Source: Victivallales bacterium (GTDB lineage: Bacteria > Verrucomicrobiota > Lentisphaeria > Oligosphaerales > Lenti-02). Taken from it: 48,973 bases of DNA. The notes under the pieces were generated by a model. The model ran no database searches and was not told the DNA's origin. It saw nothing but the letters and a program-made list of their open reading frames with translations. A program made the position numbers and the translations under genes. This document shows, in pieces, positions 23,357-38,005 of the stretch (positions are counted from its first letter, which is position 1; each line of letters begins with the position of its first letter). The DNA lies in the NCBI GenBank assembly GCA_003245525.1, contig QKCY01000601.1:1-48973 (forward strand). The letters run 5' to 3'.

Positions 23357-24622
23357 CTACGGGCGCGACTGAAGATGCTCGCTGACTTGCCGGATGAAGA
23401 TGTCCGCCGCTGCGTCTCCGTGGCGTTGGCGCAGGTCGAGGCAGTAGCCTTTGAACTCGTCCAGGGACACGCTGGCACCGTGCCGGAGTTCCGATAGGTA
23501 GCTGGCCCCGATCACGGCCATCGCCTCGGCGGCGCGTTCCGCATCGTAGAGCGGGCGGCGGCCCTGTTGGATGCAACGGCAGGCCTCGCGGATCATCGCC
23601 ATGAAACCGGAGTAGGCGGGCTCTTTGCCCTCGGCGATGTTGTAGCCGGTCAGGGGATTCTGGGTCGGCACCTCATGGGCGTTGCCCCAGGCATCGAGCA
23701 CCTTCAGCGGACTGCCCAACACCAGCTCGCCCGCGCTGCCCACAATCCGGTTGCCAGGGCGATCCTGGCCGCTCCAGGAGGCCTCGATGTGGACCATGGT
23801 CCGGCTGCCCGTCGTGGGGCATTCGAGATCGAACACCACATGGGCATCGTCCTCTACGGCCACCTTCTCCAGCGCGCCGTTGACCAAACGTTCCGGCATG
23901 CGCAGCGCCACGCCGATCGGCCGCACCGCCTGGGCACGGACCGGTTTCTGCCCGAACCCGCAGATGAACCAGGCGGTGGCAATCGCGTGGACGCCCATAT
24001 CGGTCAGCGCCCCGCCGCCGCTCAGTTCGGGACTCCAGCGTACCGGCAGTACCTCCCGGATACCGAAGGAGATGTTCATCAGCAACGGCTGGCCGATGGT
24101 ACCGGAATCAAGCTGCTTCTTGGCGTCGTACCACGGCGACTCGAACATGAGGTTCTCGGCGCAGCAGAACTGCTTGCCGCTGGCCTGGACCGCCTCCAGC
24201 ACCGGCAGGCATTCCAGCCAGGTCCGGGTCATAGGCTTCTCGCAGAAGACGTGCAAGCCCGCCTCCAGAGCCAACACGGAGAGCGATGCGTGGGCCTTGG
24301 GCGGCGCGATGATATCCACCATGTCGAGCCCACCCGCGCGGCACATGGTCGCGGCGTCCGCATAGCCCTTGAGCTCGGCCGCATCGCTGCGCAATTCGGC
24401 GGCACGGGCGGTGTCCCCGGCTGCCTCCTGCTGCCGGGCCTCGTCCTCGAAAGCGGCCTTCACGGCAGCAACGGCCCGGGCGAGACGGTCGGGATTCGTC
24501 TCGCAGACGGCGGCGAGTTTCGCCTCGCGCACGTTGCGATAGGCGTGCAGATGCCCCGAACCGCCGCCCCAGCCATAGAAGATGCTGCCCGTGCCAATGG
24601 CGCCAATGCGTAGTCTGTCCAT
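23357..24622 (-). CDS. Gfo/Idh/MocA-family oxidoreductase
   Basis: A 421-residue NAD(P)-dependent sugar or inositol dehydrogenase family protein. The N-terminal Rossmann fold begins with RIGAIGTGSIFYGWGGGSGH. The FCEKPMTRT motif holds the conserved EKP lysine used in catalysis, and WSPELSGGGALTDMGVHAI is the DxxxH-type block before the C-terminal alpha/beta domain. AGGAG is 9 bases before the ATG at 24622. It ends a three-gene operon after the TIM-barrel isomerase gene (16 bases) and the GntR-LacI regulator, so it probably works on a sugar or sugar acid whose uptake or breakdown that regulator controls. The substrate is not determined. Confidence 0.88.
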   Translation of the reverse strand: MDRLRIGAIGTGSIFYGWGGGSGHLHAYRNVREAKLAAVCETNPDRLARAVAAVKAAFEDEARQQEAAGDTARAAELRSDAAELKGYADAATMCRAGGLDMVDIIAPPKAHASLSVLALEAGLHVFCEKPMTRTWLECLPVLEAVQASGKQFCCAENLMFESPWYDAKKQLDSGTIGQPLLMNISFGIREVLPVRWSPELSGGGALTDMGVHAIATAWFICGFGQKPVRAQAVRPIGVALRMPERLVNGALEKVAVEDDAHVVFDLECPTTGSRTMVHIEASWSGQDRPGNRIVGSAGELVLGSPLKVLDAWGNAHEVPTQNPLTGYNIAEGKEPAYSGFMAMIREACRCIQQGRRPLYDAERAAEAMAVIGASYLSELRHGASVSLDEFKGYCLDLRQRHGDAAADIFIRQVSEHLQSRP

Positions 24623-24638
24623 GGTCGTAGACTCCTGG

Positions 24639-25478
24639 CTACTGGATTTCCCGGAGAGCATTGACGAGGTATGCGCGGCTCTCGGCGATCATCCGCCGTC
24701 CCTGTTCGGGGGAAAAGCCGCCTTCGGATTCGAGGGAGAGCACGCTGTCGTAACCGTATCTGGCCAGGACGGCGATACACCCGGCCAGGTTCACCGTACC
24801 CTTGCCGAGGGCCACGCACTCGCTCCCGGCCACGTCCTTCACGTGGACATGGACCACGCGATCGACCACCGCGTCTAGAGTGGGCACCTCGTCCTGCTTC
24901 TCGCCGAAGGGCGTCCAGGAATAGGCACCTTGGACGGTCTCGACATATTGGGCGCGATGCACGTTGGCCGTGTCGTAGTTGATGCCCAGCCAGGGCGAGG
25001 CAGTGAGCCCGAGAATCCGACGCAGGCCGTCGGCGGTGAGGGAGAAGGTGCCGTGGGGTTCGATAGCTAGATAGACGCCGCATTCCTCGGCCACGGGCAG
25101 GATGGCATCGAGCCGCTGGCGGAGAAGATCGAGGGCCGACTCTTCGGTCATTCCCGCCGGTTTCTGGCCGTCGCCGGCGTTGACCACGGGAATGCCTGCC
25201 GCCCCGGCCCAGCGGATCGTCTGGCTGATTCCCTCGACGCAGGCCGGATCGGGGATCATTGCCCCATGGGGCGCCCATAGGGCCGTGGCCCCCGCGAAAC
25301 CGAAGTCCTTCACCTTCTGGCGGAAGACATCCGGATCGTCGTGCCAGGGGTCCACATGGGGACACCAGGGCGCGGTAGCCTGGGGCTCCACGTACTCGTA
25401 GCCAGCCTCCGCAATCCAGGCCATGGCCTGTTCGAGCGAGTGCTCGCGAAATGTCACGGTACCGCATCCGATCTGCAT
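24639..25478 (-). CDS. Xylose-isomerase-like TIM-barrel epimerase/isomerase
   Basis: A 279-residue protein of the sugar phosphate isomerase/epimerase (AP-endonuclease 2-like) family. The expected metal ligands appear in LAIEPHG (Glu), GINYDTANVHR (Asp, His), VHVHVKDV (His) and VLSLESEGG (Glu), ending the barrel strands. Such enzymes isomerise or epimerise ketoses or act on inositol derivatives. GGGAGAG lies 7 bases before the ATG. It starts 4 bases after the regulator's stop and is followed by a Gfo/Idh dehydrogenase, a classic pair in sugar or inositol catabolism. The exact sugar is unknown. Confidence 0.88.
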   Translation of the reverse strand: MQIGCGTVTFREHSLEQAMAWIAEAGYEYVEPQATAPWCPHVDPWHDDPDVFRQKVKDFGFAGATALWAPHGAMIPDPACVEGISQTIRWAGAAGIPVVNAGDGQKPAGMTEESALDLLRQRLDAILPVAEECGVYLAIEPHGTFSLTADGLRRILGLTASPWLGINYDTANVHRAQYVETVQGAYSWTPFGEKQDEVPTLDAVVDRVVHVHVKDVAGSECVALGKGTVNLAGCIAVLARYGYDSVLSLESEGGFSPEQGRRMIAESRAYLVNALREIQ

Positions 25479-25482
25479 GGTC

Positions 25483-26604
25483 TCACTCTCCCGTTGGATT
25501 CCGGTCGCCGCAGGTGCGCCGGACGATGAGCCGGGCGGGCAGAACTACCTGCCGATACTCCCCGGCGACCGCCACATTCTGGCCCTCGATCCTGCCCAAC
25601 AGGATGCGGGCCGCCATTTCGCCAGTTTCCCGGGCGGGCTGGGCCATGGTGGTCAGGCCCAGATCCGCCGCGTACCGGACATTGTCGAATCCCACCAGCG
25701 CCATATCATCCGGCACGGTTCTCCCAGCCTCTCCCAGCGCGCGCAAGGCCCCGACCGCGAGCCGGTCGCTAACCGCAAACACCGCCGTGGGCGGCGACGG
25801 CAGAGCCAGCAGGCGTTTCATCTCGTCGTAGCCGCCGCTGCTCGGTTCGTAACCGGACCCGCGCTCCGGGCCAGTGTCCATGATGCTGGCGACCAGCGTT
25901 TCGTCGTAGGCAATACCGTGACGCTCCAGCGCCCGGCGATAGCCCGCCAGCCGGTCCTCGATGGCGGTGGACATCAGCCAGCCCAGACAGCCAATCCGGC
26001 GGTGCCCCAACCCGGTCAGGTGGCCCACCGCGATCTCGGCTCCGGCCCGGTTGTCGGTCACCACCCAATCCGTGGGGATGTCCCGGAAGAAGCGGTTGAC
26101 GAGGACAAAGGGGAAGCCCGAGTCCTTCAGTTCGGCAATGGCGGGGGCATTGGCTCTGCCCCAGGTGGGAAAGATGATCGCGCCATCCTCCCGGCCTCCG
26201 ACCAGCGCCCGGATATGTTCCGCTTCCAGCGCCGCGTCGCGCTCCGAACTGTAGACCGACACCCGGCACCCGGACCGCCGGGCCGCCGCCGCCAATCCCC
26301 GGTGAATCTCGCAGACGAACAGATCCTCGATGTCTGGGACGATGAAGGCCAGCGTCCGGCTGCGGCTCGGCACCGATGGCGTCGCGAAGGTCCCTTTGCG
26401 CTGAATGCGGGTGACCAGACCTTCCTGGGCCAGGTCGCGCAGGGCATGGGTCACGGTGATCCGGCCCACCCCATAGTGCACCGCCAGCTCGTCCACCGCA
26501 GGCAGCGCCTCCCAGGCCGGATACGTGCCAGCCTCGATCCGTTGCCGCAGTTCCTCCCGGATCTGGACATACAGGGGCGTTTCACGGGTCCGCTCGACCG
26601 CCAC
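25483..26604 (-). CDS. GntR-HTH/LacI-sensor transcriptional regulator
   Basis: A 373-residue AraR-like regulator. Residues about 8-75 form a GntR-type winged helix (LYVQIREELRQRIEAGTY, ALPAVDELAVHYGVGRITVTHALRDL, EGLVTRIQRKGTF). Residues about 80-365 form a LacI-type periplasmic-binding-protein sensor (TLAFIVPDIEDLFVCEI, GAIIFPTWGR, VGHLTGLGHRRIGCLG, DDMALVGFDNVRYA). It is expected to bind a sugar effector and repress its own operon (isomerase, dehydrogenase). The GTG at 26604 is 7 bases after GGAG; a GTG at 26610 is also possible but too near that site. A promoter and direct-repeat operator candidate lie just upstream. Confidence 0.85.
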   Translation of the reverse strand: MAVERTRETPLYVQIREELRQRIEAGTYPAWEALPAVDELAVHYGVGRITVTHALRDLAQEGLVTRIQRKGTFATPSVPSRSRTLAFIVPDIEDLFVCEIHRGLAAAARRSGCRVSVYSSERDAALEAEHIRALVGGREDGAIIFPTWGRANAPAIAELKDSGFPFVLVNRFFRDIPTDWVVTDNRAGAEIAVGHLTGLGHRRIGCLGWLMSTAIEDRLAGYRRALERHGIAYDETLVASIMDTGPERGSGYEPSSGGYDEMKRLLALPSPPTAVFAVSDRLAVGALRALGEAGRTVPDDMALVGFDNVRYAADLGLTTMAQPARETGEMAARILLGRIEGQNVAVAGEYRQVVLPARLIVRRTCGDRNPTGE

Positions 26605-26625
26605 AGGCACTCTCCATATGCACCG

Positions 26626-26646
26626 AATAGAGTTTTAATAGACTTT
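26626..26646. promoter_or_regulatory. Candidate operator, direct repeat AATAGA(G/C)TTT
   Basis: AATAGAGTTT (26626-26635) and AATAGACTTT (26637-26646) form a 10-bp direct repeat with an 11-bp period, one helical turn. The patch is very AT-rich in a GC-rich region, lies upstream of the regulator gene and overlaps the -10 element at 26642-26647. It suits autoregulation by the GntR-LacI protein; GntR sites are often palindromic, so this is tentative. Confidence 0.45.
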
Positions 26647-26669
26647 ATTTTCTCCCGACACCCCGTCAA
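26642..26669 (-). promoter_or_regulatory. Promoter of the sugar-utilisation operon
   Basis: On the minus strand TTGACG (26669-26664) and TAAAGT (26647-26642) are 16 bp apart, about 40 bases before the regulator start. Confidence 0.55.
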
Positions 26670-26723
26670 GGGGCAATCCAACCTTTTGTCTGCCCCAAGA
26701 AACGGAAGCGCCAACCGCCGGTT

Positions 26724-28238
26724 CTAGGCGTTCCGGCGGCGGGGGAGCACGGTGAGCACCATGCCCACGAGGAAGAGTCCCAGCCCCACGGCGGGAGCGG
26801 CCACTTTCCCCGTCTGGGAGACCGGGCTGCGGGCGGTCTCCAGTTCGCGGGTAGTCTGTGGGCTCCACCCGGTCAGCCGGGCGTCGTCGGCGCGGGGCAG
26901 GTCCGCCCCGCCTTCGGTGAAGGCGTAGAGTTTGCCGTCGTGCCCGGGATAGAGCAGGAGGGCCTCGCCACCATCGCGCTGGAGGAGCGAAGGGGAGGAC
27001 CACAGGGAGGCACCGCGGGTCTCGTAGGACCACAGCATATCGCCCGAGGAAAAGTCCATGAGCGCACAACCCGTCTCGCCGTCGAGCGCATAGAGCCGGT
27101 TGTCCAACGAACAGATGAAGACGGTGGGGCGTCCCTTGATATGGCCCAAGGCCGGCGAGGACACCACGTACTTGCCCGTCTGGAACTTCCAGACCTCGTC
27201 GCCCGCCTTGGCCTCGATGGCGTGGACGCAGCGGTCGGAGGAACCGATGGCCAGGAGCAGCAAGTCGCCCGCCTTGTAGAGCACCGGCGTGGAAAGGATC
27301 TCGTGACCCGCCTTGTAGTGCCAGAGCGAGGCACCCGTGGCGGCATTCAGACAGCGGACCATGCCCCAGGCGTTGGCGGCGACCACGACCGGCACGTTGG
27401 CGATCTCGGCCACCAGCGGGGCGGCATCGATCCGGTGATCGGTGAGATAGGTCCACACCTCCTTGCCGGTACGGGCGTCGCAACAGTACAGCCTGCCGTC
27501 CTCGGAGCCGAAGTAGAGCCGAGGCTCGCCGCAGTCCTGGGAGTTCTTCTTGATCCGGTAGAAGGTGGGCGTGGTGAGGTGTCCGCTGGAGATGCGTTCC
27601 TTCCAGATCAGATTCCCGGTCGCCGCCTCGATGGCATAGAGGTCGCCGTTCTGGGTGGTGCGCAGGGGCCGCCGGTCGCCATTCCACATGGTGGAGAACA
27701 GAACGTCCCGACCGTCGAGATCCACCACCAGCGGCGATCCGGCCACGCTCTCGCCCACGGTGTAGGTCCAGTTGTAGGTTTCGTAGTTCCAGAGCTTCTT
27801 GCCAGTACGGGCGTCGAGGCCGTAGAAGCAGCGGTCACTCGAAGCGACGAACAGCATGGGCTGGCCCTTGATCCAGGCAAAAGCAGGAGACGCCTTCACC
27901 AGGCAGCCGGTGGTGAACCGCCAGATCTCCCGCCCGTTTTCGGGATCGAGGCAGTAGATGTTGTGGTCGTAGGAGCCGACGAAGATGCGCAGCTTCCCAT
28001 CCACCACCGCGCCGATGGCGTTGCTGGTCCAGACGCTGGCCCCCTGGCAGTACTTCCAGGTGTGACTGCCGAGGTCGAAGGTCCACAGGTGGCGATAGGG
28101 CGGGGTCTTGAGCTGAAGCCCGGACTGGCCGCTCCGGCTGGGATCGCCCCGGAACATGGGCCATTCGGGACGCGGCTTGTCCTCCTGGGCCGGAACCCAG
28201 GCCGCAACGAGCAGGAGAATCAGAGCCAGGTGCCTCAT
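26724..28238 (-). CDS. Exported PQQ-type beta-propeller protein with C-terminal membrane anchor
   Basis: A 504-residue protein with a signal peptide (RHLALILLLVAAWVPAQ), an eight-blade PQQ-like propeller and a C-terminal helix (VAAPAVGLGLFLVGMVLTVLP) followed by RRR. Blades repeat as (L/I)YxLDxxTGxxxWxxxTG: IYCLDPENGREIWRFTTG, FYGLDARTGKKLWNYET, LYCCDARTGKEVWTYLTD, VHAIEAKAGDEVWKFQTG, LYALDGETG. WPMFRGDPSRSG at the mature N-terminus is typical of this family. Quinone binding or simply a scaffold are both possible; no dehydrogenase Asp/Cys-Cys site was recognised. GAGGAGG precedes the ATG, which overlaps the polyferredoxin stop by ATGA. Extracellular or periplasmic location. Confidence 0.85.
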   Translation of the reverse strand: MRHLALILLLVAAWVPAQEDKPRPEWPMFRGDPSRSGQSGLQLKTPPYRHLWTFDLGSHTWKYCQGASVWTSNAIGAVVDGKLRIFVGSYDHNIYCLDPENGREIWRFTTGCLVKASPAFAWIKGQPMLFVASSDRCFYGLDARTGKKLWNYETYNWTYTVGESVAGSPLVVDLDGRDVLFSTMWNGDRRPLRTTQNGDLYAIEAATGNLIWKERISSGHLTTPTFYRIKKNSQDCGEPRLYFGSEDGRLYCCDARTGKEVWTYLTDHRIDAAPLVAEIANVPVVVAANAWGMVRCLNAATGASLWHYKAGHEILSTPVLYKAGDLLLLAIGSSDRCVHAIEAKAGDEVWKFQTGKYVVSSPALGHIKGRPTVFICSLDNRLYALDGETGCALMDFSSGDMLWSYETRGASLWSSPSLLQRDGGEALLLYPGHDGKLYAFTEGGADLPRADDARLTGWSPQTTRELETARSPVSQTGKVAAPAVGLGLFLVGMVLTVLPRRRNA

Positions 28239-29236
28239 GCTTCGTCCTCCTCGCTCTTTCGTTCCTCCCGCACGAAGCGGTAGTCGCAGACCCGGTTGCA
28301 CTGGCCGCAGTAGATGCAGCTCGATCCATCCACCTCGCCCCGGTCCAGCGCCCCCATTGGGCAGGTGGTGTCGCAGGTGCCGCAGTTCGTGCAGGGCGTC
28401 GTCTTGCGCACCCGGATGGGGCTGAACTTGGTCAGCCAACCCAGCGCGCCGCCCATGGGACAGAGATAGCGGCACCAGGCCATGGGCACGATCAGCGCCC
28501 CGGCCAGCACCGCCGCCAGGGAGACGGCGCTGGAATAGTCGATCTCGTCCCCGAAGAACGTACACCAGGGGCTGGTCACGAAGACCCCAATCACCGAGAG
28601 CCCCAGCCAAAGGACGACGGAGACGTACTTCACCCCCTTGAACCGCCGGTCGTGCAGCTCGAAGGGCAGCACCGCCGCCAGGAAAAGCAGCAGGGACGCG
28701 CCCCACATGGCCGCGATGTTCTCCGAGAAGAACTGCGTGCCGGGCCGCACCAGCCAGGCAAACCAGGTCACGACCACCAGCACGCCCGCCAGCATCAAAT
28801 AGCCCGCGATCAGCCGGCGCCCCTTGGGCAATCGCTGGCGCAGGCGGGCCGGTATACTCAAAAGTTCACTGAAGAGTCCCAAGGGACAGAGCCAACCGCA
28901 GAATAATCGGCCGAAGGCCAGGGTCAGCGAAACGAGCAGGACGAACATGCAGAGATGGCCAAAGGCCACGATATCGTTCCGCCCCACCTTGTTCAGCGCG
29001 AAGATCCAGCCCCGCAACATGCAGAGGCAGCGGTGCAGGAAGAGGATGAAGACGAAGGCTGCGGTGATCTGGCAGGCCCGCCGCCAGAGCTGCACGTGCT
29101 TGCCGCGATGCAGCAGCACGTGGGCGGCAATCAGAATGCCGAAGAAGATCACGAACGGCGCGGCGTCGATCCAGAATCCCTGGATCGGCAACAGGGCCTG
29201 TTTGGTGATCTTGAAGAGAGGAACGTCGATTCTCAT
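28235..29236 (-). CDS. NapH/CcoG-like membrane polyferredoxin
   Basis: A 333-residue integral membrane iron-sulfur protein. Helices lie about 26-45, 55-75, 92-112, 143-163, 177-195, 205-225 and 235-255. Two CxxxCP motifs follow membrane segments (CGWLCP 113-118; CRYLCP 255-260). Two ferredoxin-type clusters follow: CTNCGTCDTTCP (282-293) and CIYCGQCNRVC (307-317), with CP in the first only. This architecture occurs in NapH, CcoG/RdxA and NosR-type electron conduits. It probably passes electrons across or along the membrane. Both ends overlap neighbours by ATGA, so it is in a tightly coupled set with an ABC transporter (upstream) and the propeller protein (downstream). The partner is not known. 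Confidence 0.88.
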   Translation of the reverse strand: MRIDVPLFKITKQALLPIQGFWIDAAPFVIFFGILIAAHVLLHRGKHVQLWRRACQITAAFVFILFLHRCLCMLRGWIFALNKVGRNDIVAFGHLCMFVLLVSLTLAFGRLFCGWLCPLGLFSELLSIPARLRQRLPKGRRLIAGYLMLAGVLVVVTWFAWLVRPGTQFFSENIAAMWGASLLLFLAAVLPFELHDRRFKGVKYVSVVLWLGLSVIGVFVTSPWCTFFGDEIDYSSAVSLAAVLAGALIVPMAWCRYLCPMGGALGWLTKFSPIRVRKTTPCTNCGTCDTTCPMGALDRGEVDGSSCIYCGQCNRVCDYRFVREERKSEEDEA

Positions 29237-30297
29237 GCAGACGGGTCCTTGTCGAGAGCCATCAGATGGAGGCGGTCGGCGGGCAAGGACAGCCGGACCG
29301 TCTCGCCCAGGGTGAGACGCAGTCCCGCGACCACGCTCTCCGGCAGATTCACCTCGAAACGCCCCGCCGCCGTGTCCACGTCGAGCAAGGTATTGAAGCC
29401 CAGATCGCGCAGACCGGCCAGACGACCCGTCAGCGTGTTCGGCGCATCCTCGGTGCTCCGGGTCAGCAGGATATCGTCGGGGCGTACGCAGAAGGCCACG
29501 GGACCGCCCAACCCCTGCGGATTGGCGGCGGCCAGAACGACGCCTTCGGCCAGAGTCACCTGATCGCCGGCGACCGTAGCCTGTTTCACGTTCGAGACGC
29601 CGAGGAAGTCGGCGACAAAGGCATTGGCGGGATGGCGGAAGACCTCGCCCACGGAGCCGACCTGTTCCAGGCGGCCTTCGCGCATGACGCCCACCCGGTC
29701 AGCCAGGGCCGTCGCCTCGGAATAGTGGTGGGTCACGTGGATCACGGGCACGCCGAGCTCCTCGGTAATGCGAGGCAGGACCGCGATCACCTTCTCCCGC
29801 GCCCGCTGATCCAGCGAGGACAGGGGTTCGTCCAGCAGGAGCACCTCGGGACGAATCGCCAGAGCACGGGCCAATGCCACCTTCTGGGCCTCGCCACCGC
29901 TCAGGGAGGACGGCGTCCGCCGCCCGGCCAAGTCCTCGATGCCGAAGAGCGCGATCATCTCGTCGATCCGCTGTTCCCGTTCCGCCTTGGCGAGCTTGGT
30001 GTAGCGCAGGCCAAAGCCGATGTTGGTGCGGACCGAGAGATGGGGGAAAAGCGCGTATTGCTGGTAGACCAGCCCCACCCGCCGCCGTTCGGGCGGCAGT
30101 TGGGTCACGTCGCGTTCCCGGATGGAGATGCGCCCCCGCTTCACCGCATAGAGACCGGCGATGGTTTCGAGCAGGAGGGTCTTCCCCGAGCCGCAGGGGC
30201 CGAGGATCACGAAATACTCGCTGCCGTTGACTTCGAGCGAGACGTCCTTGAGCGAAAAGCCGCCCCAGGCACGGGAGAGTCGGTCCACGCGGATCAT
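29233..30297 (-). CDS. ABC transporter ATPase (molybdate/sulfate/Fe type)
   Basis: A 354-residue ATPase that energises the adjacent permease. Walker A is GPCGSGKT (33-40), the Q-loop YQQYALFPHLSV, signature SLSGGEAQKVALARAL (about 131-146) and Walker B EVLLLDEPLSSLDQ (151-164). It has the H-loop HVTHHYSEA. The C-terminal 100 residues form a TOBE/MOP-like regulatory domain (FCVRPDDILLTRST; FEVNLPE), as in ModC/CysA/FbpC. Transport class is the oxyanion or iron-type, not sugar-specific. ATG at 30297 overlaps the permease stop by ATGA. An upstream in-frame start at 30372 lies inside the permease gene. Confidence 0.9.
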   Translation of the reverse strand: MIRVDRLSRAWGGFSLKDVSLEVNGSEYFVILGPCGSGKTLLLETIAGLYAVKRGRISIRERDVTQLPPERRRVGLVYQQYALFPHLSVRTNIGFGLRYTKLAKAEREQRIDEMIALFGIEDLAGRRTPSSLSGGEAQKVALARALAIRPEVLLLDEPLSSLDQRAREKVIAVLPRITEELGVPVIHVTHHYSEATALADRVGVMREGRLEQVGSVGEVFRHPANAFVADFLGVSNVKQATVAGDQVTLAEGVVLAAANPQGLGGPVAFCVRPDDILLTRSTEDAPNTLTGRLAGLRDLGFNTLLDVDTAAGRFEVNLPESVVAGLRLTLGETVRLSLPADRLHLMALDKDPSA

Positions 30298-31517
30298 CGG
30301 CCGATCCTCCTCTCCCCGAAGATGGGGCCAAGCGTCGCGGTCTGCAGCCAACGGAGTAGCAGGAAACCCCACAGACAGACGATCACCAGCAACACCGCCG
30401 CCGGACGCGCCTCCTGCAAGCCGTACTGCACGAACATGTCATAGGTGTAGACCGAGACCGTGAAGGGATGGTAGGCGATCACCATCAGGCTGCCCACCTC
30501 CGAAATGGCCCGCGCCCAACAGAGGATGCAACCCGTGAAGATGCCCCCCGACGCCAGCGGCAAACTCACCCGGAAGAAGGTGCTGAGAGGTCCCGCACCG
30601 AGCGTCCGGCTGACGTTCTCCAGGGCAGGCCCCATGTCCCGGAACGCATTGGCCGCGCTGCGGATCAGGAAAGGCGAACTGACGAAGACCTGGCAGAGCA
30701 CGATCCCCAGCATGCTGCCGGAGACCTCGATCCCGAGGCGCTGATCGAGCCACGCACCCACCGGGGTTTTCGGCCCCAGTAGCACCATGATGGCGATACC
30801 CGCCACCGACTGGGGAATCACGATGGGCAAATCGATCAGGCTCTCGATGAATCCCTTGCCCTTGAAGTCCAGCCGCACCACCGCATAGGCCAGCGGCACC
30901 CCGAACACCAGCACCACCACCGTCGAGATGGTGGCCGACAGCAGACTCGTACGCAACGCTCCCCGGAAAGCCGAATCACCCATGCTGTTCAGCAGGGTCT
31001 GCGGGGTCACTTGGAAGCAGAGATAGAGCAACGGCAGCATGATCGCGAAGATCAGCAGGAAACCGAAGCCCAGACAGAACAGGTGGAACCGCTTCGTCCG
31101 CTGGGGCCAGATCGGCGCGATAATGGTGAACAGCAGACAAGCCAGGAGGGTCGTCTGAATCCAGTAGGGCGTGACGAAGACGATGGAAACAACGAGAATC
31201 AGCAGATAGCCCAGCAGCAACGGCGTCCGGAACATCGCCGCATAGAGCATCCCGAAGGTGGCGAAGAGCAACGGCGAACGGGCCACGGGCACGAAGAGCA
31301 GGAAGATCACGAAGAACCCGGTCAGGTACAGGTTCTGCCGCCGCTGGCCGAACTCCTCCCGGATGCGGAACGCCTGCCACACCGCGAAGGAGTCCGTACA
31401 CGCGAGCACCGCGCCCGTGCCCAGATCCAAGAGTCCCAGAAGAATGGCCGCCACATGGGCGAGCAGAACCCCGCCCGAGACGAGGTTGCCCCGGTTCAGC
31501 AATCGTTGTTCAGCCAA
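30294..31517 (-). CDS. ABC transporter permease with extra N-terminal membrane domain
   Basis: The C-terminal ~240 residues match ModB/CysT/WtpB-type permeases: TSLLSATISTVVVLVFGVPLAYAVVR, LPIVIPQSVAGIAIM, VSSPFLIRSAANAFRDMGPALENVSRTLGAGPLSTFFRVSLP (EAA-like loop), ISEVGSLMVIA. The first ~165 residues add about five hydrophobic helices not seen in standard 230-270-residue permeases of this class. Start: I prefer TTG at 31517, with AGGAG 7 bases upstream (407 residues). An ATG at 31568 has no Shine-Dalgarno. First gene of the four-gene minus-strand set; divergent from the lipoprotein/permease operon. Confidence 0.85.
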   Translation of the reverse strand: MAEQRLLNRGNLVSGGVLLAHVAAILLGLLDLGTGAVLACTDSFAVWQAFRIREEFGQRRQNLYLTGFFVIFLLFVPVARSPLLFATFGMLYAAMFRTPLLLGYLLILVVSIVFVTPYWIQTTLLACLLFTIIAPIWPQRTKRFHLFCLGFGFLLIFAIMLPLLYLCFQVTPQTLLNSMGDSAFRGALRTSLLSATISTVVVLVFGVPLAYAVVRLDFKGKGFIESLIDLPIVIPQSVAGIAIMVLLGPKTPVGAWLDQRLGIEVSGSMLGIVLCQVFVSSPFLIRSAANAFRDMGPALENVSRTLGAGPLSTFFRVSLPLASGGIFTGCILCWARAISEVGSLMVIAYHPFTVSVYTYDMFVQYGLQEARPAAVLLVIVCLWGFLLLRWLQTATLGPIFGERRIGR

Positions 31518-31753
31518 AGGTATGCTCCTGGGCGGATGCGGTTGTATCGACCGTACCGTATTGAGCATACTTTGCCACCGATTCGCCGACGACGAAAAAA
31601 GTGTGAAGATTCTTTGAAATGCCTCCTTCGCCAATCGCAATTTCCTGGCGGTTCCCCCGCCTCTCCACCATGGTAGAACCGTGCCAGTATGAAATCATCC
31701 CGGGCCAATCAGCCGGCAGCTTGCGGGCGGAGCCGGGTCACACGAGGTCCCCC

Positions 31754-32275
31754 ATGCCCTTCTGCTTGCTGCGGTCAATCCTGTATCTGGCTCTTGGGGT
31801 CTGCCTGGTTTCCTGCGGTCCCTCCGCCGACCAGGGAACGGCCTGCGAGAAGACGCCCCGCCTGGCCAGCCTGGTTGGCCAGCAGCTGGGCTCTCCGGAA
31901 GCCCCGGTACAGGTGGTGACCTTCCTGCCCGTGAACAACGGCTGCCAGGACGTGATCGGCGAGTATCTGGCCCAAGTGGCCGAGCGTTTCCCCGCCGTCT
32001 TCCAGGTGCGCATCCTGGCCATGAAGAGCCCGGACGCCAAGGAATTGATGGACGCCCACGAGATCCACTGCGCGGCGGTCATGGTCAACGGCAAGACCAC
32101 CTTTGATCTTGGCGGCGAAGAGGGCAAGTTCATCCTGGAAGGCCCCATGGACCCCCGGGATGTGGTCCGCGCCCTGAATGCCGCCGCCCGCGCCGCCGTG
32201 GGCGACCAGGCTCCCCAACTCCCTGCGCCCCCCGAACAGCCGGGTATCGAGAACATGCCCAAGAGGACATTCTGA
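31754..32275 (+). CDS. Thioredoxin-fold lipoprotein 1
   Basis: A 173-residue lipoprotein (LVSC, Cys21). The body resembles a thioredoxin-like fold: EAPVQVVTFLPVNNGCQDVIGEYLAQVAERFP (Cys64 at the active-site position but no CxxC), AMKSPDAKELMDAHEIHCAAVMVNGKTTF. Cys106 sits where SP (cis-Pro) occurs in the small CxxC protein at 35004, so the cis-proline is replaced by CA. A Pro-rich tail ends in PKRTF. ATG at 31754 has GAGG 6 bases upstream. Clearly related to the lipoprotein at 34525. Probably a periplasmic redox or metal-handling partner of the adjacent permease; the function is inferred. Confidence 0.75.
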   Translation: MPFCLLRSILYLALGVCLVSCGPSADQGTACEKTPRLASLVGQQLGSPEAPVQVVTFLPVNNGCQDVIGEYLAQVAERFPAVFQVRILAMKSPDAKELMDAHEIHCAAVMVNGKTTFDLGGEEGKFILEGPMDPRDVVRALNAAARAAVGDQAPQLPAPPEQPGIENMPKRTF

Positions 32276-33696
32276 TGCGCCGCTTTGCCCTGCTGCTCTG
32301 GCTGTGCCTGCTGGCCGGGACGCTCCCGGCTGCCGGTCCCTCTTTGCGCCTGTACGGCCACGTGCAGCAGGCTGTCACCAAGTCCGCCATTGCCAAGGGC
32401 GAAATCGAACTCCGCCTGCCGGGACACGAGGACACCTTCGCCTCCCGCACCGTCCCCCTGCGCGAGGATGGCACCTACGAACTGCTGCTGCCTTTCGCCG
32501 ATCTGCCCGAGAAACCCGGCGACCTGACCCTGAGCGCCCTGGCCGAGGGTTTCGAGACCAAGGAGGTGCCGCTAGTCTTCCCGGAAGGCGTGGGGATGCC
32601 CGAAGAGCTGAAGGTCAACTTCGTCCTGGCCGCCTCCACCCTGGACGGGGTGCTGGACATCTTTTCCTGCTGCGTGCTGAGCTGGTCGGTGCTGACCGTC
32701 ATGCTGCCCGCCTTCCTGCTGGGCGCGGCCATCACCGCCTTCGTGCCCAGCCACGCCCTGCTGCGCTGGCTGGGGCCCGCCGCCCCCAAACCCCTGGCCT
32801 ACGGGGCAGCCATCAGCAGCGGCATGGTCCTCAGCCTCTGTTCCTGCAATGTGGTACCGCTATTCGTGAGCATCTGGGCCGGCGGCGCGGGCATCGGCCC
32901 CGCCTTCGCCTTCCTCTATGCCGGACCGGCCATCAACCTGGTGGCCATCGCCTTCACCTGCCGGGTGATCGGGACGGGCATCGGATTCTTCCGGGTGATT
33001 GCCGTCGCCGTGATCTCCCTGATCGTGGGTCTGCTCATGGCCCGGATCTTCGGCGAACGCCAGGACCACAAGCCGCCCACCACCGATCTGGGCAGCATCT
33101 CGATGGGACCCTCCGGGCGGGTCACCACCGCGATTCTCGGCCTGCTCCTCTACCTGCTGGTTGCCAATTCCTTCCACTTTGGCCTGACCACGAATCTCCT
33201 GCTTGCCGCCCCCGGCGTAATAGCACTGATCGTGGTATGCTTCATCGGCCTGCGCCGTGACCACGTGGAACTCTGGGCACGGGAGACCTGGCGGCTGCTG
33301 ATGAAGGTGATTCCCATTCTCATCCCCGCCGTGCTCATCATCGGCTTCGCCGCCCAGCACGTGCCGCTGACCGCCACCCGTTGGCTGAGCGGCTCGAACG
33401 GGATCATGCGCAACTTCGTGGCGGCCCTTTTCGGTTCCCTCATGTACTTCCCGATCCTCACCGAAGTCCCCTTCGTCAAGACCATGCTCAAGGTCATGGG
33501 CATGGGCATCGGCCCCGGCATGGCCCTCCTCCTGACCGCCCCCGGCCTCAGTTTGCCGGGCATGATTATCGTCAGCCGGGAAATCGGCTGGAAACGTCTG
33601 TCCGTCTATGTGGTCTGTATCGTCCTGTTGGCCACGCTTACCGGTTGGTTCTTCGGTTCGGAATGGGGTGCCTACATATGCAACTGCCAGCTCTGA
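32275..33696 (+). CDS. PF03773-type permease (ArsP/YraQ/SO_0444-like) with exported N-terminal beta domain
   Basis: A 473-residue protein. It starts with a signal peptide (LLLWLCLLAGTLPAAG) and an Ig/transthyretin-like domain (about 20-120: LRLYGHVQQAVTKSAIAKGEIELRL, DGTYELLLPF, LSALAEGFETKEVPLVFP). Ten or so helices with family motifs follow: SLCSCNVVPLFVSIW, AFLYAGPAINLVA, GSLMYFPILTEVPFVKTML, LTAPGLSLPGMI. It ends in CNCQL. Known members export arsenicals or Cu/Zn; the substrate here is unknown. The ATG overlaps the upstream stop by one base (TGATG). The fused beta domain is unusual. Confidence 0.82.
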   Translation: MRRFALLLWLCLLAGTLPAAGPSLRLYGHVQQAVTKSAIAKGEIELRLPGHEDTFASRTVPLREDGTYELLLPFADLPEKPGDLTLSALAEGFETKEVPLVFPEGVGMPEELKVNFVLAASTLDGVLDIFSCCVLSWSVLTVMLPAFLLGAAITAFVPSHALLRWLGPAAPKPLAYGAAISSGMVLSLCSCNVVPLFVSIWAGGAGIGPAFAFLYAGPAINLVAIAFTCRVIGTGIGFFRVIAVAVISLIVGLLMARIFGERQDHKPPTTDLGSISMGPSGRVTTAILGLLLYLLVANSFHFGLTTNLLLAAPGVIALIVVCFIGLRRDHVELWARETWRLLMKVIPILIPAVLIIGFAAQHVPLTATRWLSGSNGIMRNFVAALFGSLMYFPILTEVPFVKTMLKVMGMGIGPGMALLLTAPGLSLPGMIIVSREIGWKRLSVYVVCIVLLATLTGWFFGSEWGAYICNCQL

Positions 33697-34496
33697 TCTC
33701 CCGTGTCTCCCTCGCGGCCGCCGCTCTCTTCCTGGCCGGCTGCGGCAAACAGGCGGAGACCGCCGCCCCCAGCTCGCTGCTGGTCCTGGTCCCCTGCGGC
33801 ATGGAACGGCCCTTCGACGAGTTGGCCACGGTCTTCGAGCAGAAGCACCCCGGCCTCGATGTGCGGATCGAACTCGAAGTGGCCCATGCCATGGCCAAAC
33901 GGGTGATCGACGGGGCCCGCCCCGACGTGGTAGTTTCCCCTGGCGGGGTCGAGCTTGAACCGCTGATTGACGGCAACTTCGTCGCCCAGGATGCGCCGGT
34001 CCGGTTCGGGGTCTACGACCTGATGCTCTTCACCCCCCGCGCCAACGAGGGCAAGGTCACCGACATGGAGAGCCTGCTGCAGGATTCGGTGAAGGTCATC
34101 GCCGTGGCCGATCCCGAGAAGACCTCCATCGGCCGGTTCACCAAGGAAGCCCTGGTGAAGAAGGGACTCTGGGACAAGCTCCAGAGCAAGATCGTCATCA
34201 CCGGCAGCGCCAGCGACACCTACGCCCATGTCTCCCGCGGCAAGGCCGATGCCAGCTTTGCCTACCGCTCCTGCCCGCTCAAGACCGCGCCCGACAAGCT
34301 GGAGTACTCCCGGGTACGGGTACTGGAGGAAGTCCCCCAGGATCTGTATGGTCCGGCCTATGCCACAGCTGCCGTCCTGACCCAGTCGCCGAACCCCGCC
34401 CTGGCGAAGGAATTCGTCGGCCTGCTCGTTTCCGACGAAGGACAGGGCATATTCCGCAAGTACGATCTGCCTTCCCTGGGGAAGGATGCGAAGTGA
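33678..34496 (+). CDS. ModA-like substrate-binding lipoprotein
   Basis: A 272-residue lipoprotein (LAGC, Cys22) of the molybdate-type binding-protein family (SBP_bac_11-like). Visible family blocks are PFDELATVFEQKHPGLDVRIEL, AKRVIDGARPDVVVSPGGVELEPLID, FGVYDLMLFTPRAN, VIAVADPEKTSIGRFTKEALVKKG, YAHVSRGKADASFAYRS and NPALAKEFVGLLVSDEGQGIFRKYDLPS. Its partner is probably the divergent ABC transporter of this locus. Cys40 in VPCGM and a Cys in YRSCPL lie in or near the predicted pocket. The ATG at 33678 lies within the last 19 bases of the permease gene. The ligand (molybdate, tungstate or another oxyanion or metal) cannot be read. Confidence 0.83.
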   Translation: MQLPALISRVSLAAAALFLAGCGKQAETAAPSSLLVLVPCGMERPFDELATVFEQKHPGLDVRIELEVAHAMAKRVIDGARPDVVVSPGGVELEPLIDGNFVAQDAPVRFGVYDLMLFTPRANEGKVTDMESLLQDSVKVIAVADPEKTSIGRFTKEALVKKGLWDKLQSKIVITGSASDTYAHVSRGKADASFAYRSCPLKTAPDKLEYSRVRVLEEVPQDLYGPAYATAAVLTQSPNPALAKEFVGLLVSDEGQGIFRKYDLPSLGKDAK

Positions 34497-34524
34497 CCCA
34501 CGTCAGCAACAGGAGACTTTCGCC

Positions 34525-35007
34525 ATGAACATCCGTACCACTAGCGCCTGGATTCTCGCCCTCGGCCTCGGCCTCGCCGTGACAGGCTGTGGCAAGAAGG
34601 AACAGACGGCCGATGTGGCCCCGCCCCAGGCCGAGACGGCCACCGATCCCGTCCAGTACTGCGACTTCGTCGGCGGTCCCGAGAATGCCCCCGTGCAAGT
34701 GGTTGGCTACTATCCCGGCGAGCACCCCGAGACCCTCGCGGTCCTCAAGGAACTGCTCACCAGCTATCCCGACAAGGTGCATGTGCAGATCGTCGACTGG
34801 CGCCGCGAGGAAGGCCGCAAGTTGCGCGACGCGGCGGGCCTGAGCTGCGCGGGCGTCACCATCAACGGCAACAACGTGCTGAAAATCGACCACGACGGCA
34901 AGGTTGACTCGGTGGCCTTCACCCGCGGCCTGACCAAGGGCGACTGGACCGTCGAGGATCTGAAGGCCGCCGTCGACCAGGAGCTGGCCAAGGCCGCCGC
35001 CCGATGA
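34525..35007 (+). CDS. Thioredoxin-fold lipoprotein 2
   Basis: A 160-residue lipoprotein (TGC, Cys22), paralogous to the one at 31754: ENAPVQVVGYYPGEHPETLAVLKEL, YPDKVHVQIVDWRREEGRKLRDAAGLSCAGVTINGNNVLKI. Cys108 is conserved with Cys106 of its paralogue, but the Cys at the usual active-site position is absent. AGGAG lies 9 bases before the ATG. Its stop overlaps the next gene's ATG (ATGA, 35004-35007), which encodes a small CxxC thioredoxin, so the pair may exchange electrons or metal. Confidence 0.72.
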   Translation: MNIRTTSAWILALGLGLAVTGCGKKEQTADVAPPQAETATDPVQYCDFVGGPENAPVQVVGYYPGEHPETLAVLKELLTSYPDKVHVQIVDWRREEGRKLRDAAGLSCAGVTINGNNVLKIDHDGKVDSVAFTRGLTKGDWTVEDLKAAVDQELAKAAAR

Positions 35008-35270
35008 GTGCGCCGGTCGAGCTGGTCCTGGTACACCGCGACCCGCCGTGCAAAAAATGCCTGACCACCAAGGCGATTCTGACCGAGGCCGCCGCCGAGA
35101 GCGGGGTCGAGACTAGCTTCCGCGAGGTCTTCATGGGCACCCCCGAAGCCGCCCCTTACGGGGTCGTCGTCAGTCCCATGGTCCTGATCAACGGCAAGGC
35201 CGCCTCGGCGGGCTTCACCCCCCTCAAGTCGGCACTAGTCAACGCGATCCGCAAGGAAGCCGGGGTCTAG
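35004..35270 (+). CDS. Small CxxC thioredoxin/glutaredoxin-like protein
   Basis: An 88-residue cytoplasmic protein with CKKC (Cys16, Cys19) after the first strand and VVSPMVLINGK with the cis-proline, the two hallmarks of a thioredoxin fold. There is no signal peptide. Length resembles TM0996/MTH895-type redoxins, which occur near PF03773 permeases. It is coupled to the preceding lipoprotein by an ATGA overlap and ends the operon. A redox partner role is likely; the target is unknown. Confidence 0.83.
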   Translation: MSAPVELVLVHRDPPCKKCLTTKAILTEAAAESGVETSFREVFMGTPEAAPYGVVVSPMVLINGKAASAGFTPLKSALVNAIRKEAGV

Positions 35271-35272
35271 GT

Positions 35273-35401
35273 AACCGCCAAGGCGCCAAGAACGCCAAGG
35301 AAAGACCAAGAAGAAACAAGAACGCGGCGTATGGCCCGCCTGCTGCGGGCCGTATGCCGCTTTTTCTTTGTCCTCTTGGCGTCCTTGGCGCCTTGGCGGT
35401 T
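35273..35401. repeat. 129-bp inverted repeat with embedded terminator
   Basis: The arms (AACCGCCAAGGCGCCAAG beginning at 35273 and its complement ending at 35401) are closely matched for about 30 bases. A less-paired A/G-rich segment follows, and the core is a 16-bp stem (see terminator). The arms are made of repeated GCCAAGG/CCTTGGC units. Located between the thioredoxin-type operon and yejB. Confidence 0.75.
35324..35365 (+). terminator. Rho-independent terminator of the permease-thioredoxin operon
   Basis: A 16-bp stem (35324-35339 with 35345-35360) with two G-U pairs on the plus-strand RNA, loop CTGCT, and TTTTT directly after. On the minus strand the same positions would be A-C mismatches, so the plus orientation is favoured. 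Confidence 0.8.
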
Positions 35402-35421
35402 CCCCCGGGTCGGACTATCTT
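35393..35421 (+). promoter_or_regulatory. Possible promoter of yejB
   Basis: TTGGCG (35393-35398), a 17-bp spacer and TATCTT (35416-35421) lie about 35 bases before the yejB ATG. The -35 element falls inside the right arm of the inverted repeat. Confidence 0.35.
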
Positions 35422-35454
35422 TGTTCCCACACTCCGTCGCTGCCGGAACCCGTC

Positions 35455-36495
35455 ATGGAACGCCTTCACTACTTCATCCGCCGCCTGCTGCTGACGATTC
35501 CGACCTTTCTGGCGATCACCCTGCTCTGCTTCGGGATTGCCCAGTTGGTGCCGGGCGGGCCGGTGGAGCAGCTCACCCGCCAGATGATGGGGGGAGCGGG
35601 CACGGGCGAGTCGGGGCCGCTCTCCGCCGCCGGCCCCGCCGTCTCCGAGAAGCAGCGCGAGGAGATCCGCAAGTATTTCGAGTTCGACCGCCCGCTGGTC
35701 GTCCGCTACTACCACTGGCTGGTACGGGACCGCATCGGCATGCTGATGCCCTCCTTCAAGTACAAGAAACCCGCCTGGGAGGTCATCCAGCGGCGGTTGC
35801 CGGTCTCGCTGGTCTTTGGGCTAACCGGGTTCCTGCTCTCCTATCTGGTCTGCATCCCGCTGGGCATCTCCAAGGCACTCCGCCACGGGAGCCCCTTCGA
35901 CATGGCTTCCAGCACCGTGGTCTTCGTCGGCTATGCGGTTCCCGCCTTCGCCTTCGGCATGGTGCTCAAGATGCTTCTCTGCGGCACCACGGAAGGCCTC
36001 TGGAACCTCTTTCCCATCGGCGGATTCCATTCCGACAACTTCGACACCCTGCCCTTCTGGCAGCAGGTGCATGACATCGCGGCCCACATGGCTCTCCCCC
36101 TGCTATGCTACGTCATCGGCAACTTCGCCGTGCTGACCCTGATGATGAAGAACTCGCTGCTGGAGCAGATCGGTGCCGACTACGTGCGTACCGTCTACGC
36201 CAAGGGCGGCAGCTCCGCCCGCGCCATCTGGGGCCACGCCCTGCGCAACGCCCTGATCCCCATCGCCACCGGGTTCGGCAGCATCTTCACCGTCATGTTC
36301 GCGGGATCGGTCATCATCGAACGGCTCTTCGACATCCCCGGCATGGGCCGACTCAGCCTGGACGCCATCGGCAGCCGCGACTACGCCGTCTTCATGGGCA
36401 TCGTCGCCCTCACCTCCATCCTCGGCCTGATCGGCAACATCTTCTCCGACTTCTGCTACGTCCTCATCGATCCCCGGATCGACTTCGAGAAGTAG
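35455..36495 (+). CDS. yejB: Peptide ABC transporter permease YejB
   Basis: A 346-residue inner-membrane permease of the DppB/YejB type, for import of oligopeptides or peptide-like compounds such as microcins in E. coli. It matches YejB in detail: LIPTFLAITLLCFGIAQLVPGGPVEQ-like opening, KYFEFDRPLVVRYYHWL, LPVSLVFGLTGFLLSYLVCIPLGISKA, FPIGGFHSDNFDTLPFWQQV and the ending LIDPRIDFEK. The EAA loop is GGSSARAIWGHALRNALIPI. The ATG at 35455 gives the family's N-terminus; no strong Shine-Dalgarno is seen. No yejA, yejE or yejF is nearby, so its partners must lie elsewhere or the gene is a relic. Confidence 0.85.
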   Translation: MERLHYFIRRLLLTIPTFLAITLLCFGIAQLVPGGPVEQLTRQMMGGAGTGESGPLSAAGPAVSEKQREEIRKYFEFDRPLVVRYYHWLVRDRIGMLMPSFKYKKPAWEVIQRRLPVSLVFGLTGFLLSYLVCIPLGISKALRHGSPFDMASSTVVFVGYAVPAFAFGMVLKMLLCGTTEGLWNLFPIGGFHSDNFDTLPFWQQVHDIAAHMALPLLCYVIGNFAVLTLMMKNSLLEQIGADYVRTVYAKGGSSARAIWGHALRNALIPIATGFGSIFTVMFAGSVIIERLFDIPGMGRLSLDAIGSRDYAVFMGIVALTSILGLIGNIFSDFCYVLIDPRIDFEK

Positions 36496-36515
36496 CCATC
36501 CCGATCACGCCTTCC

Positions 36516-36576
36516 CCGTGGCCGGAACGTCCTCGTTCCGGGCCTTCCCCACCGGAGCCAGCGGCTCCGGCCACGG
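36516..36576. repeat. Bipartite hairpin element (three-way-junction type)
   Basis: An outer stem CCGTGG/CCACGG (36516-36521 with 36571-36576) encloses two perfect 8-bp hairpins. CCGGAACG/CGTTCCGG has loop TCCT (36522-36541) and CCGGAGCC/GGCTCCGG has loop AGC (36552-36570). The loops and plan equal those of the element at 23285-23335, while all stems differ. Confidence 0.78.
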
Positions 36577-36694
36577 AATGCCTGGTGTCGGCGCTGGCAT
36601 CGGCGGGGCGATCCCCTATTGTACCGACTTCGCCACCGGCCACCCGGCCGGGGCAATGCGAGGATTCCTTCCGCACTACGGAGGCGATGTTCCC

Positions 36695-38005
36695 ATGGTC
36701 AAGATCGCGATCATCGGCGGTTCCGGTCTCGAAGACCCGCAGATTCTGCAGGATCCCCAAGTTCTCAACGTCACCACGCCCTACGGTCCCCCCAGCTCCC
36801 CGATCACCTGCGGGCGCATCGGCGGCGTCGAGGTGGCGATCCTCTCCCGGCATGGGCGCGACCACCATCTGCCTCCCACCCATGTCCCCAACCGGGCCAA
36901 CATCCAGGCCATCAAGGACCTCGGCTGCACCCATATTCTCGCCACCACGGCGGTGGGCTCCCTGCAGGAGGAGATCGGCCGGGGCGATCTGGTCATCATC
37001 GATCAGTTCATCGATTTCACCCGCCACCGGCAGGTGACCTTCCACGACGATTTCAGCGGTGGCATGCGCCACACGGCCATGGCCGAGCCCTTCGACAAAT
37101 CCCTCCGCGACTATCTCGCCGCCGCCGCCGCCGAACTGAGCCTCAAGGTTCATCGCCGGGGCACGGTGGTTACCATCGAGGGACCCCGCTTCTCCACCCG
37201 TGCCGAGTCCCACATGTTCCGGGCCTGGGGTGCGGACATCATCAACATGTCCACCGCACCCGAGGCGGCCCTGGCCAACGAGGCCGGCATCCCCTACGCC
37301 GCCGTAGCCATGAGCACCGACTACGATTGCTGGAAGGAGGACGAGGCACCGGTCACCTGGGAGGCCGTCCTTGAGATTTTCCACCAGAACGCGGCCAACG
37401 TGAAGAACCTGCTGGTCAAGGCCATTCCCGCCATCGCCAAGGGCACCCCGCCGCCCGCCCTGGACGACGCCACGCGGGACGAGATCAAGAGCATGTTCCG
37501 CACGGTACCGAACTTCCCCATCCCCGGGGTCATGTTCCGCGACGTCACCACCCTCATCAAGAACCCGCGCGGCCTGAAGCTCGTCACCGAGGCCTTCGCC
37601 GACCGCTACCGGGACCGGAACGTGGACGCGGTCGCGGGGATCGAGAGCCGCGGCTTCGTGCTCGGCAGCGTGCTGGCGCACGCCCTCGGAGTCGGGTTCG
37701 TCCTGTTGCGCAAGCCCGGCAAGCTGCCTGCCGACATCGAGCGGGTGGAATACACCACCGAGTACTCCACCGACGCCATCGAGGTCCATCGCGACGGCAT
37801 CGAGGCGGGCCAGCGGGTGCTGGTCGTGGACGACCTTATTGCGACCGGTGGCACCGCCCTGGCCGCCTGCCAGCTCGTCGAGAAGCTTGGCGGCAAGGTG
37901 GTCGAGTGCGCTTTCGTCGTGGACCTGCCCGATCTGGGCGGGGCGGACAAACTGCGCGAGGCGGGGTACAAGCCTTTCCATCTGGTCGAGTTCGAGGGCG
38001 AATAG
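36695..38005 (+). CDS. Fusion of 5'-methylthioadenosine phosphorylase and adenine phosphoribosyltransferase
   Basis: A 436-residue fused enzyme. Residues 1 to about 245 are MTA phosphorylase: VKIAIIGGSGLED, SRHGRDHHLPPTHVPNRANI, TVVTIEGPRFSTRAES, INMSTAPEAALANEAGI and MSTDYDCWKE. Residues about 262-436 are adenine phosphoribosyltransferase: MFRTVPNFPIPGVMFRDVTTLI, VAGIESRGFVLG, and the PRPP loop VLVVDDLIATGGT (375-387). The first half makes adenine and methylthioribose-1-phosphate; the second converts adenine plus PRPP to AMP. The ATG at 36695 has GGAGG 10 bases upstream. mtnA follows after 9 bases, completing the next step. Confidence 0.9.
   Translation: MVKIAIIGGSGLEDPQILQDPQVLNVTTPYGPPSSPITCGRIGGVEVAILSRHGRDHHLPPTHVPNRANIQAIKDLGCTHILATTAVGSLQEEIGRGDLVIIDQFIDFTRHRQVTFHDDFSGGMRHTAMAEPFDKSLRDYLAAAAAELSLKVHRRGTVVTIEGPRFSTRAESHMFRAWGADIINMSTAPEAALANEAGIPYAAVAMSTDYDCWKEDEAPVTWEAVLEIFHQNAANVKNLLVKAIPAIAKGTPPPALDDATRDEIKSMFRTVPNFPIPGVMFRDVTTLIKNPRGLKLVTEAFADRYRDRNVDAVAGIESRGFVLGSVLAHALGVGFVLLRKPGKLPADIERVEYTTEYSTDAIEVHRDGIEAGQRVLVVDDLIATGGTALAACQLVEKLGGKVVECAFVVDLPDLGGADKLREAGYKPFHLVEFEGE

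Follow-up and report, generated by a model that had tools for sequence, protein, structure and literature searches.

Among the known systems closest to the locus examined here is the selenocysteine-assisted organometallic (SAO) system. According to a review (PMC13188914, citing Haft and Gwadz 2023), SAO comprises an ATP-binding cassette (ABC) importer with cysteine- or selenocysteine-type binding proteins, an efflux permease of family PF03773 and a thioredoxin-like protein, and such parts also occur in a set of nine genes of a Victivallales bacterium (contig QKCY01000601.1, positions 26724–35270). The contig, 48,973 nucleotides long and analyzed in full (hereafter the window), is C33 of a 607-contig metagenome-assembled genome (MAG; G000). 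Three other kinds of system share parts with the locus. ModABC and WtpABC resemble it in importer fold and gene order, and a WtpA orthologue is encoded in the same genome. PF03773 operons of the ars type (ArsR, ArsP/SO_0444-like permease, Thioredoxin_3 and DGC; for example G000:C158) have the permease family and Thioredoxin_3 in common with it, and polyferredoxins such as NapH, MauN and NosR have the membrane CxxxCP motifs and two [4Fe-4S] sets. We propose, with a probability of about 0.5, that the products of the locus traffic a thiophilic (soft) metal or metalloid across the cell envelope, by way of capture, import, thiol or sulfur handling and re-export.

Four of the nine genes lie on the minus strand and five on the plus strand, back to back. 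The original prediction had described nine genes in two divergent operons, mostly with ATGA and TGATG overlaps, and reading of the open reading frames (ORFs) together with Pfam confirms this. The features are as follows (PQQ, pyrroloquinoline quinone):

26724–28238, minus: BamB/PQQ-like beta-propeller, exported and C-terminally anchored, 504 aa (PF13360/PF13570)
28235–29236, minus: NapH-like membrane protein, 333 aa (PF12801; TIGR02163, 58.8 of 213 bits)
29233–30297, minus: ABC importer ATPase with TOBE domain, WtpC-like (PF00005, PF08402; NF040840 (WtpC), 355 of 440 bits)
30294–31568, minus: ABC importer permease, WtpB-like (PF00528; WtpB, 254.6 of 340 bits)
31569–31753, no strand: intergenic region separating the divergent operons (from ORF positions; no Rfam match)
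31754–32275, plus: lipoprotein 1, probably thioredoxin-like, no CxxC (six-sequence alignment; alignment to lipoprotein 2)
32275–33696, plus: PF03773 (ArsP/SO_0444/SaoE-like) permease (PF03773 (ArsP_1), 166 bits)
33678–34496, plus: ModA-fold binding lipoprotein with PCGM motif (PF13531 (SBP_bac_11); modA TIGR01256, 108 bits; AlphaFold2/Foldseek)
34525–35007, plus: lipoprotein 2, thioredoxin fold, no CxxC (AlphaFold2; Foldseek; alignment)
35004–35270, plus: cytoplasmic CxxC redoxin, Thioredoxin_3/MTH895-like (PF13192, 41 bits)

ATGA overlaps join ABC permease to ATPase, ATPase to NapH, NapH to propeller, and lipoprotein 2 to the redoxin. Lipoprotein 1 meets the PF03773 gene at a TGATG junction, the PF03773 and binding-protein genes overlap by 19 bases, and lipoprotein 2 is preceded by a 28-base gap containing a Shine-Dalgarno-like GGAG. 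The start of lipoprotein 1 was set at 31754, though the long ORF opens at 31619, as indicated by the signal peptide and by an orthologue from a genome of the same genus (L030).

Measured against SAO, the window permease matches the PF03773 family well (166 bits, cut-off 32.3) but falls under both specific cut-offs, SaoE (71.9 of 325 bits) and SO_0444 (59 of 300 bits). Models for SaoB, SaoX, SaoP, SaoT, SaoC and SaoL gave no match to the nine window proteins at E-values up to 0.1. A SaoL search of 11 genomes was likewise without a match, but since its positive control gave no signal either, SaoL may still be present. No selenocysteine was seen; the window frames run to conserved C-termini and have Cys at the motif sites. 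The window also adds a NapH-like protein and a propeller to the SAO set, and its relatives add NifS. The system is like SAO in how it works, yet the SAO features that we tested were not found in it. Compared with ModABC and WtpABC, it has replaced oxyanion ligands, added cysteines, and a linked exporter and redoxins. Compared with the ars-type operons, it lacks ArsR and DGC and adds an N-terminal domain, a binding protein, thioredoxin-like lipoproteins and an ABC importer. Its polyferredoxin scores under the NapH cut-offs and goes with an ABC importer and a propeller, not with a reductase. The locus is neither a plain ModABC/WtpABC system, judging by the ligand sites, nor a plain ars operon, and its features suggest soft-metal handling with a PF03773 exporter. 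As originally predicted, no named system of this composition was found, nor was a published description in the literature searched by combined terms.

The nine-gene locus is more than a chance assembly, because the divergent pair recurs in relatives and the exporter-side order recurs across Armatimonadota. The whole pair is present at L025 and L026, in two relatives from the window's taxonomic order, where one strand encodes lipoprotein 1, the PF03773 permease, two ModA-like domains in tandem, lipoprotein 2, a cysteine desulfurase like NifS and Thioredoxin_3, and the other a WtpA-like protein, ABC permease, ATPase, NapH and propeller. The WtpA-like protein, the desulfurase and the second binding domain are additions to the window's set. 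A single genome of the same family carries the halves on separate contigs (L024 and L031). At L030 a single operon contains lipoprotein 1, PF03773, a CGSG-type binding protein, a short permease, an ATPase and lipoprotein 2. In other ARRANGEMENTS, a scan with the PF03773 alignment, using one genome per species, returned only nine loci, from Victivallales, Lentisphaeria and Kiritimatiellota MAGs, one Armatimonadetes and one Zipacnadia. The material consists of MAGs on fragmentary contigs, the detailed search covered two phyla, and gene starts in the MAG loci are estimates.

Within the phylum of the Armatimonadetes match, 65 of 251 genomes contain a permease relative at E < 1e-50. We read 32 Armatimonadota neighborhoods, 30 of them from a close class; no more than 8 kb from the permease, 22 of these 30 encode a binding protein and 19 a thioredoxin-like lipoprotein. 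Five Armatimonadota loci (L094–L098) hold a complete seven-gene operon: PF03773, PCGM binding protein, thioredoxin-like lipoprotein, tandem binding protein, ABC permease, third binding protein and ATPase. At L038, one reading frame spans a binding protein and a thioredoxin domain. It is chiefly these shared operons and the fused frame that indicate joint action of binding protein, redoxin, importer and exporter, and the link between import and export holds because the ABC permease and ATPase share the exporter-side operon there. Permeases without the other parts, several of them adjoining heat-shock genes, were rejected as cases of the system (L115–L117, L119 and L120).

The PF03773 permease has an extra N-terminal domain and six invariant cysteines (FSCC, CSCN and a C-terminal CxC) in 6/6 compared sequences. 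A separate PF03773 gene of the same genome, at C158, stands with Thioredoxin_3, a DGC protein and an ArsR-like regulator, the last recognized by sequence reading only. Elsewhere, a full-length orthologue lies by itself next to an apparent ArsB/NhaD-type permease (L061:1-1977; G020:C825); the standalone copies of G016 and G020 were excluded from the system.

The binding protein clears the modA cut-off (TIGR01256, 108 vs 62.5 bits) and its model has the ModA fold, but its ligand site is altered. Relative to the molybdate-binding serines, whose identities we take from E. coli ModA, the first position is Gly41, flanked by Cys40, and the second is Ala or His. P39-C40-G41 and C199 are kept in 8/8 aligned binding proteins, and by our count from the list PCG[ML] is present in 33/33 strong core matches of the wider set. 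Aligned to the structures of E. coli ModA, the protein has Cys40 at a position also occupied by Cys in 3axf, the A11C/R153C mutant with perrhenate. A canonical ModA (LFAAASTN) with ModB and ModC is encoded elsewhere in the genome, at C517, so molybdate uptake needs no window genes; the window system is probably not for molybdate uptake. The genome also contains, at L156:5179-11874 (C575), two further ModA-like binding proteins, of CGAG and AGAAS type, with two ABC permease-ATPase pairs flanking a ThiF-family gene, and a similar binding-protein/permease/ATPase set is found at C2.

Pfam gave no family of any kind for lipoprotein 1 or lipoprotein 2, NCBIfam none of thioredoxin type, and neither protein has a CxxC. 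For lipoprotein 2, the AlphaFold2 model (mean predicted local distance difference test score 82.5) retrieves thioredoxins as top Foldseek matches (probability 0.99–1.0, E-value only 8e-3). Lipoprotein 1 aligns to lipoprotein 2 at 22–23% identity, with the Cys and the residues after it common to both, and is probably thioredoxin-like as well. Of the two thioredoxin-fold lipoproteins predicted originally, the second is backed by a model and the first by its alignment to the second. Invariant motifs are GCQD and CAAV in lipoprotein 1 (six-sequence alignment) and GL-x-C-[AG] in lipoprotein 2. The invariant Cys of both would occupy the place of the thioredoxin cis-proline, to judge from the alignments. 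Mutation of this proline is reported to enable iron-sulfur cluster binding by thioredoxins (Su et al. 2007, as cited in PMC8161271).

The importer half (permease, ATPase, NapH-like protein and propeller) is present in 4 of 99 genomes. Its ATPase and permease are nearest to WtpC and WtpB in NCBIfam, both under cut-off. The permease has an additional N-terminal membrane region of ~160 aa, also seen in L024–L026 and missing from L030 and L037; the Cys-type binding proteins that share operons with an importer pair with a shorter ABC permease, unlike that of the window. The NapH-like protein has two membrane CxxxCP motifs and two C-terminal [4Fe-4S] Cys sets, the cluster cysteines being invariant, and outside its own genome its orthologues (56–75%) occur solely in G002, G011 and G003. 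In the propeller, Cys/His columns are invariant across four orthologues. The original prediction called it PQQ-type: the BamB/PQQ-like fold stands, but as a quinoprotein dehydrogenase it was rejected (86 vs cut-off 480 bits), and a score so far under the cut-off implies no PQQ chemistry.

All four importer-half genomes have a WtpA orthologue, which in the relatives is the first gene of this importer operon and in G000 lies on a different contig (C164, 1752–2759). It was not found in G001, G006 or G022, the searched genomes with PF03773 and without NapH. Since the WtpA orthologue tracks the NapH/ABC half across genomes, the window importer probably has its own binding protein elsewhere, and the protein at C164 is more likely its dedicated partner than the window's binding protein. 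The original prediction took the window's binding protein and importer for one transporter. A link between the two kinds of gene is upheld by their shared operon at L030 and in the five Armatimonadota loci, but not for the window pair. NapH, WtpA and the ABC half are confined to the same four genomes, and all four also have a full-length PF03773 orthologue, which occurs in 9 of 99 genomes overall (hypergeometric p about 3e-5, a statistic that ignores kinship). The original prediction of one coherent transport-plus-redox system is supported, and the refuting condition set with it, absence of co-occurrence of the halves in related genomes, did not hold: the halves are found together in 4/4 genomes with the importer half. 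NapH and propeller stand outside the wider core and were seen only alongside the WtpA-type importer. Among the WtpA orthologues, Ala replaces the second Asp of NPNDDP in 4/4, and the Glu of SMEMEL has given way to Cys in three and Val in one; we take these positions to be the tungstate ligands of WtpA (Hollenstein 2009).

One further cluster, at L028:6755-16197 (G007:C47), contains a WtpA-like protein, long permease, ATPase, NapH and propeller and no PF03773. Upstream of this importer set lie genes for another NapH-like protein, for a reductase of the double-cubane-cluster type (263 of 350 bits) and for an HgdC-like activase, so that importer and low-potential electron genes are again combined.

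Genes for sulfur relay accompany the system in several places. NifS is present in L025, L026, L036 and L102; MoeB/ThiF adjoins the L110 permease and, as judged by sequence likeness, that of L112; and L106 has a MoaD-like gene. A second cluster of the window's own genome (C300) comprises Thioredoxin_3, NifS, thioredoxin-like lipoprotein and PCGM binding protein, adjoining a ThiS-ThiF fusion. In L106, ArsD stands among the system genes (98.1 vs cut-off 90), and in L109 a MerR domain occurs with Thioredoxin_3. Arsenic as the substrate gains weak extra support.

Beyond the observed gene content, conservation, co-occurrence, fold, replaced ligands and invariant cysteines, we infer the substrate, the transport directions and roles for the NapH-like protein, propeller and lipoproteins, which would fit together as follows. 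The Cys-containing ModA-fold lipoprotein and the thioredoxin-fold lipoproteins with their exposed Cys would catch the substrate outside the inner membrane, and the Mod/Wtp-type importer, with its altered WtpA partner encoded elsewhere, would take it in. The cytoplasmic CxxC redoxin may keep it reduced or thiolated, with cysteine desulfurase and a ThiS-ThiF sulfur carrier added in relatives, and the PF03773 permease, through three conserved Cys pairs, would send it out again. We speculate from co-occurrence that the NapH-like protein and propeller are an electron-supply add-on to the WtpA-type importer. A more ambitious version, in which an undescribed multi-gene system of at least two phyla uses Cys-repurposed ModA-fold proteins to catch a soft metal or metalloid, then imports it, modifies it with sulfur from dedicated NifS/ThiS-ThiF and re-exports it via the six-Cys permease, is tentative and on balance doubtful.

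Several points weigh against soft-metal trafficking. An importer and an exporter for one substrate are an uncommon pairing, and 8 of the 30 close Armatimonadota loci have the permease with no binding protein in reach. No metal-resistance gene, metal regulator or ars gene was recognized by sequence reading among the ORFs of 24000–38000, and a search of the window's own genome did not find ArsD. Conserved Cys alone does not prove that metal is bound; cysteines of a ModA can also enter into a regulatory disulfide (PMC11734730), and the binding protein still clears the modA family cut-off.

That score, together with a WtpA in one relative that clears TIGR03730 (278.6 vs 242.75) and the MoeB-like, MoaD-like and NifS genes close by in relatives, would suit a diverged molybdate or tungstate uptake system with associated sulfur-carrier genes for molybdenum cofactor (Moco). 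This is quite improbable given the replaced Ser and Asp/Glu ligands, the canonical ModABC of the same genome and the constant presence of the PF03773 exporter; moreover, no Moco or other riboswitch matched Rfam anywhere in the window. The original prediction had offered an oxyanion or a soft metal as substrate; a soft metal is supported, and the ligand sites and the ModABC genes speak against the oxyanion. The sulfur genes could instead serve cofactor assembly, in which imported metal and sulfur from NifS/ThiS-ThiF are joined and then sent out to a metalloenzyme of the periplasm, while NapH and propeller help in assembly or electron transfer. Metalloenzyme systems do employ NapH-like proteins, and both the C300 cluster and the four NifS-bearing loci fit this scheme, but no obvious client enzyme recurs beside the genes and many loci are without NifS, making it unlikely. 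Least probable is trafficking of reduced sulfur or selenium species rather than metal. The thiol-rich parts, the cysteine desulfurase and ThiS-ThiF of the wider system and a lipoyl-domain gene in L121 agree with it, whereas metals or metalloids are indicated by the relatives of PF03773 and by ArsD, as well as by the grouping of the genome's other PF03773 gene with an ArsR-like regulator, Thioredoxin_3 and DGC.

Other features were seen around these loci. The 3' flank of the window's plus-strand operon (35270–35420) contains a long imperfect inverted repeat (AACCGCCAAGGCGCCAAG and its complement). A small lipoyl-domain protein lies by tiny redoxin-like proteins in Armatimonadota PF03773 clusters at L121:11252-11846 (domain assigned by Pfam) and L109:11454-11696 (by sequence likeness). 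At L102:10512-13568, a MacB/FtsX-type permease and ATPase stand between two genes resembling the thioredoxin-like lipoproteins, adjoining a PF03773 cluster, and L025:3250-3290 matches the abiF RNA (39 vs 37 bits).

Both the binding protein, by its modA score, and the permease, by its ArsP family, are easily misnamed. The conserved cysteines suggest a different ligand for an entire group of ModA-like proteins, and the natural Cys lies at the site that was engineered to Cys in the ModA mutant crystallized with perrhenate (3axf). With this locus, the pairing of import and export for a soft metal or metalloid could be tested apart from the selenoprotein-based SAO system, in lineages that are uncultured (Victivallales/Lentisphaeria-type MAGs and Armatimonadota).

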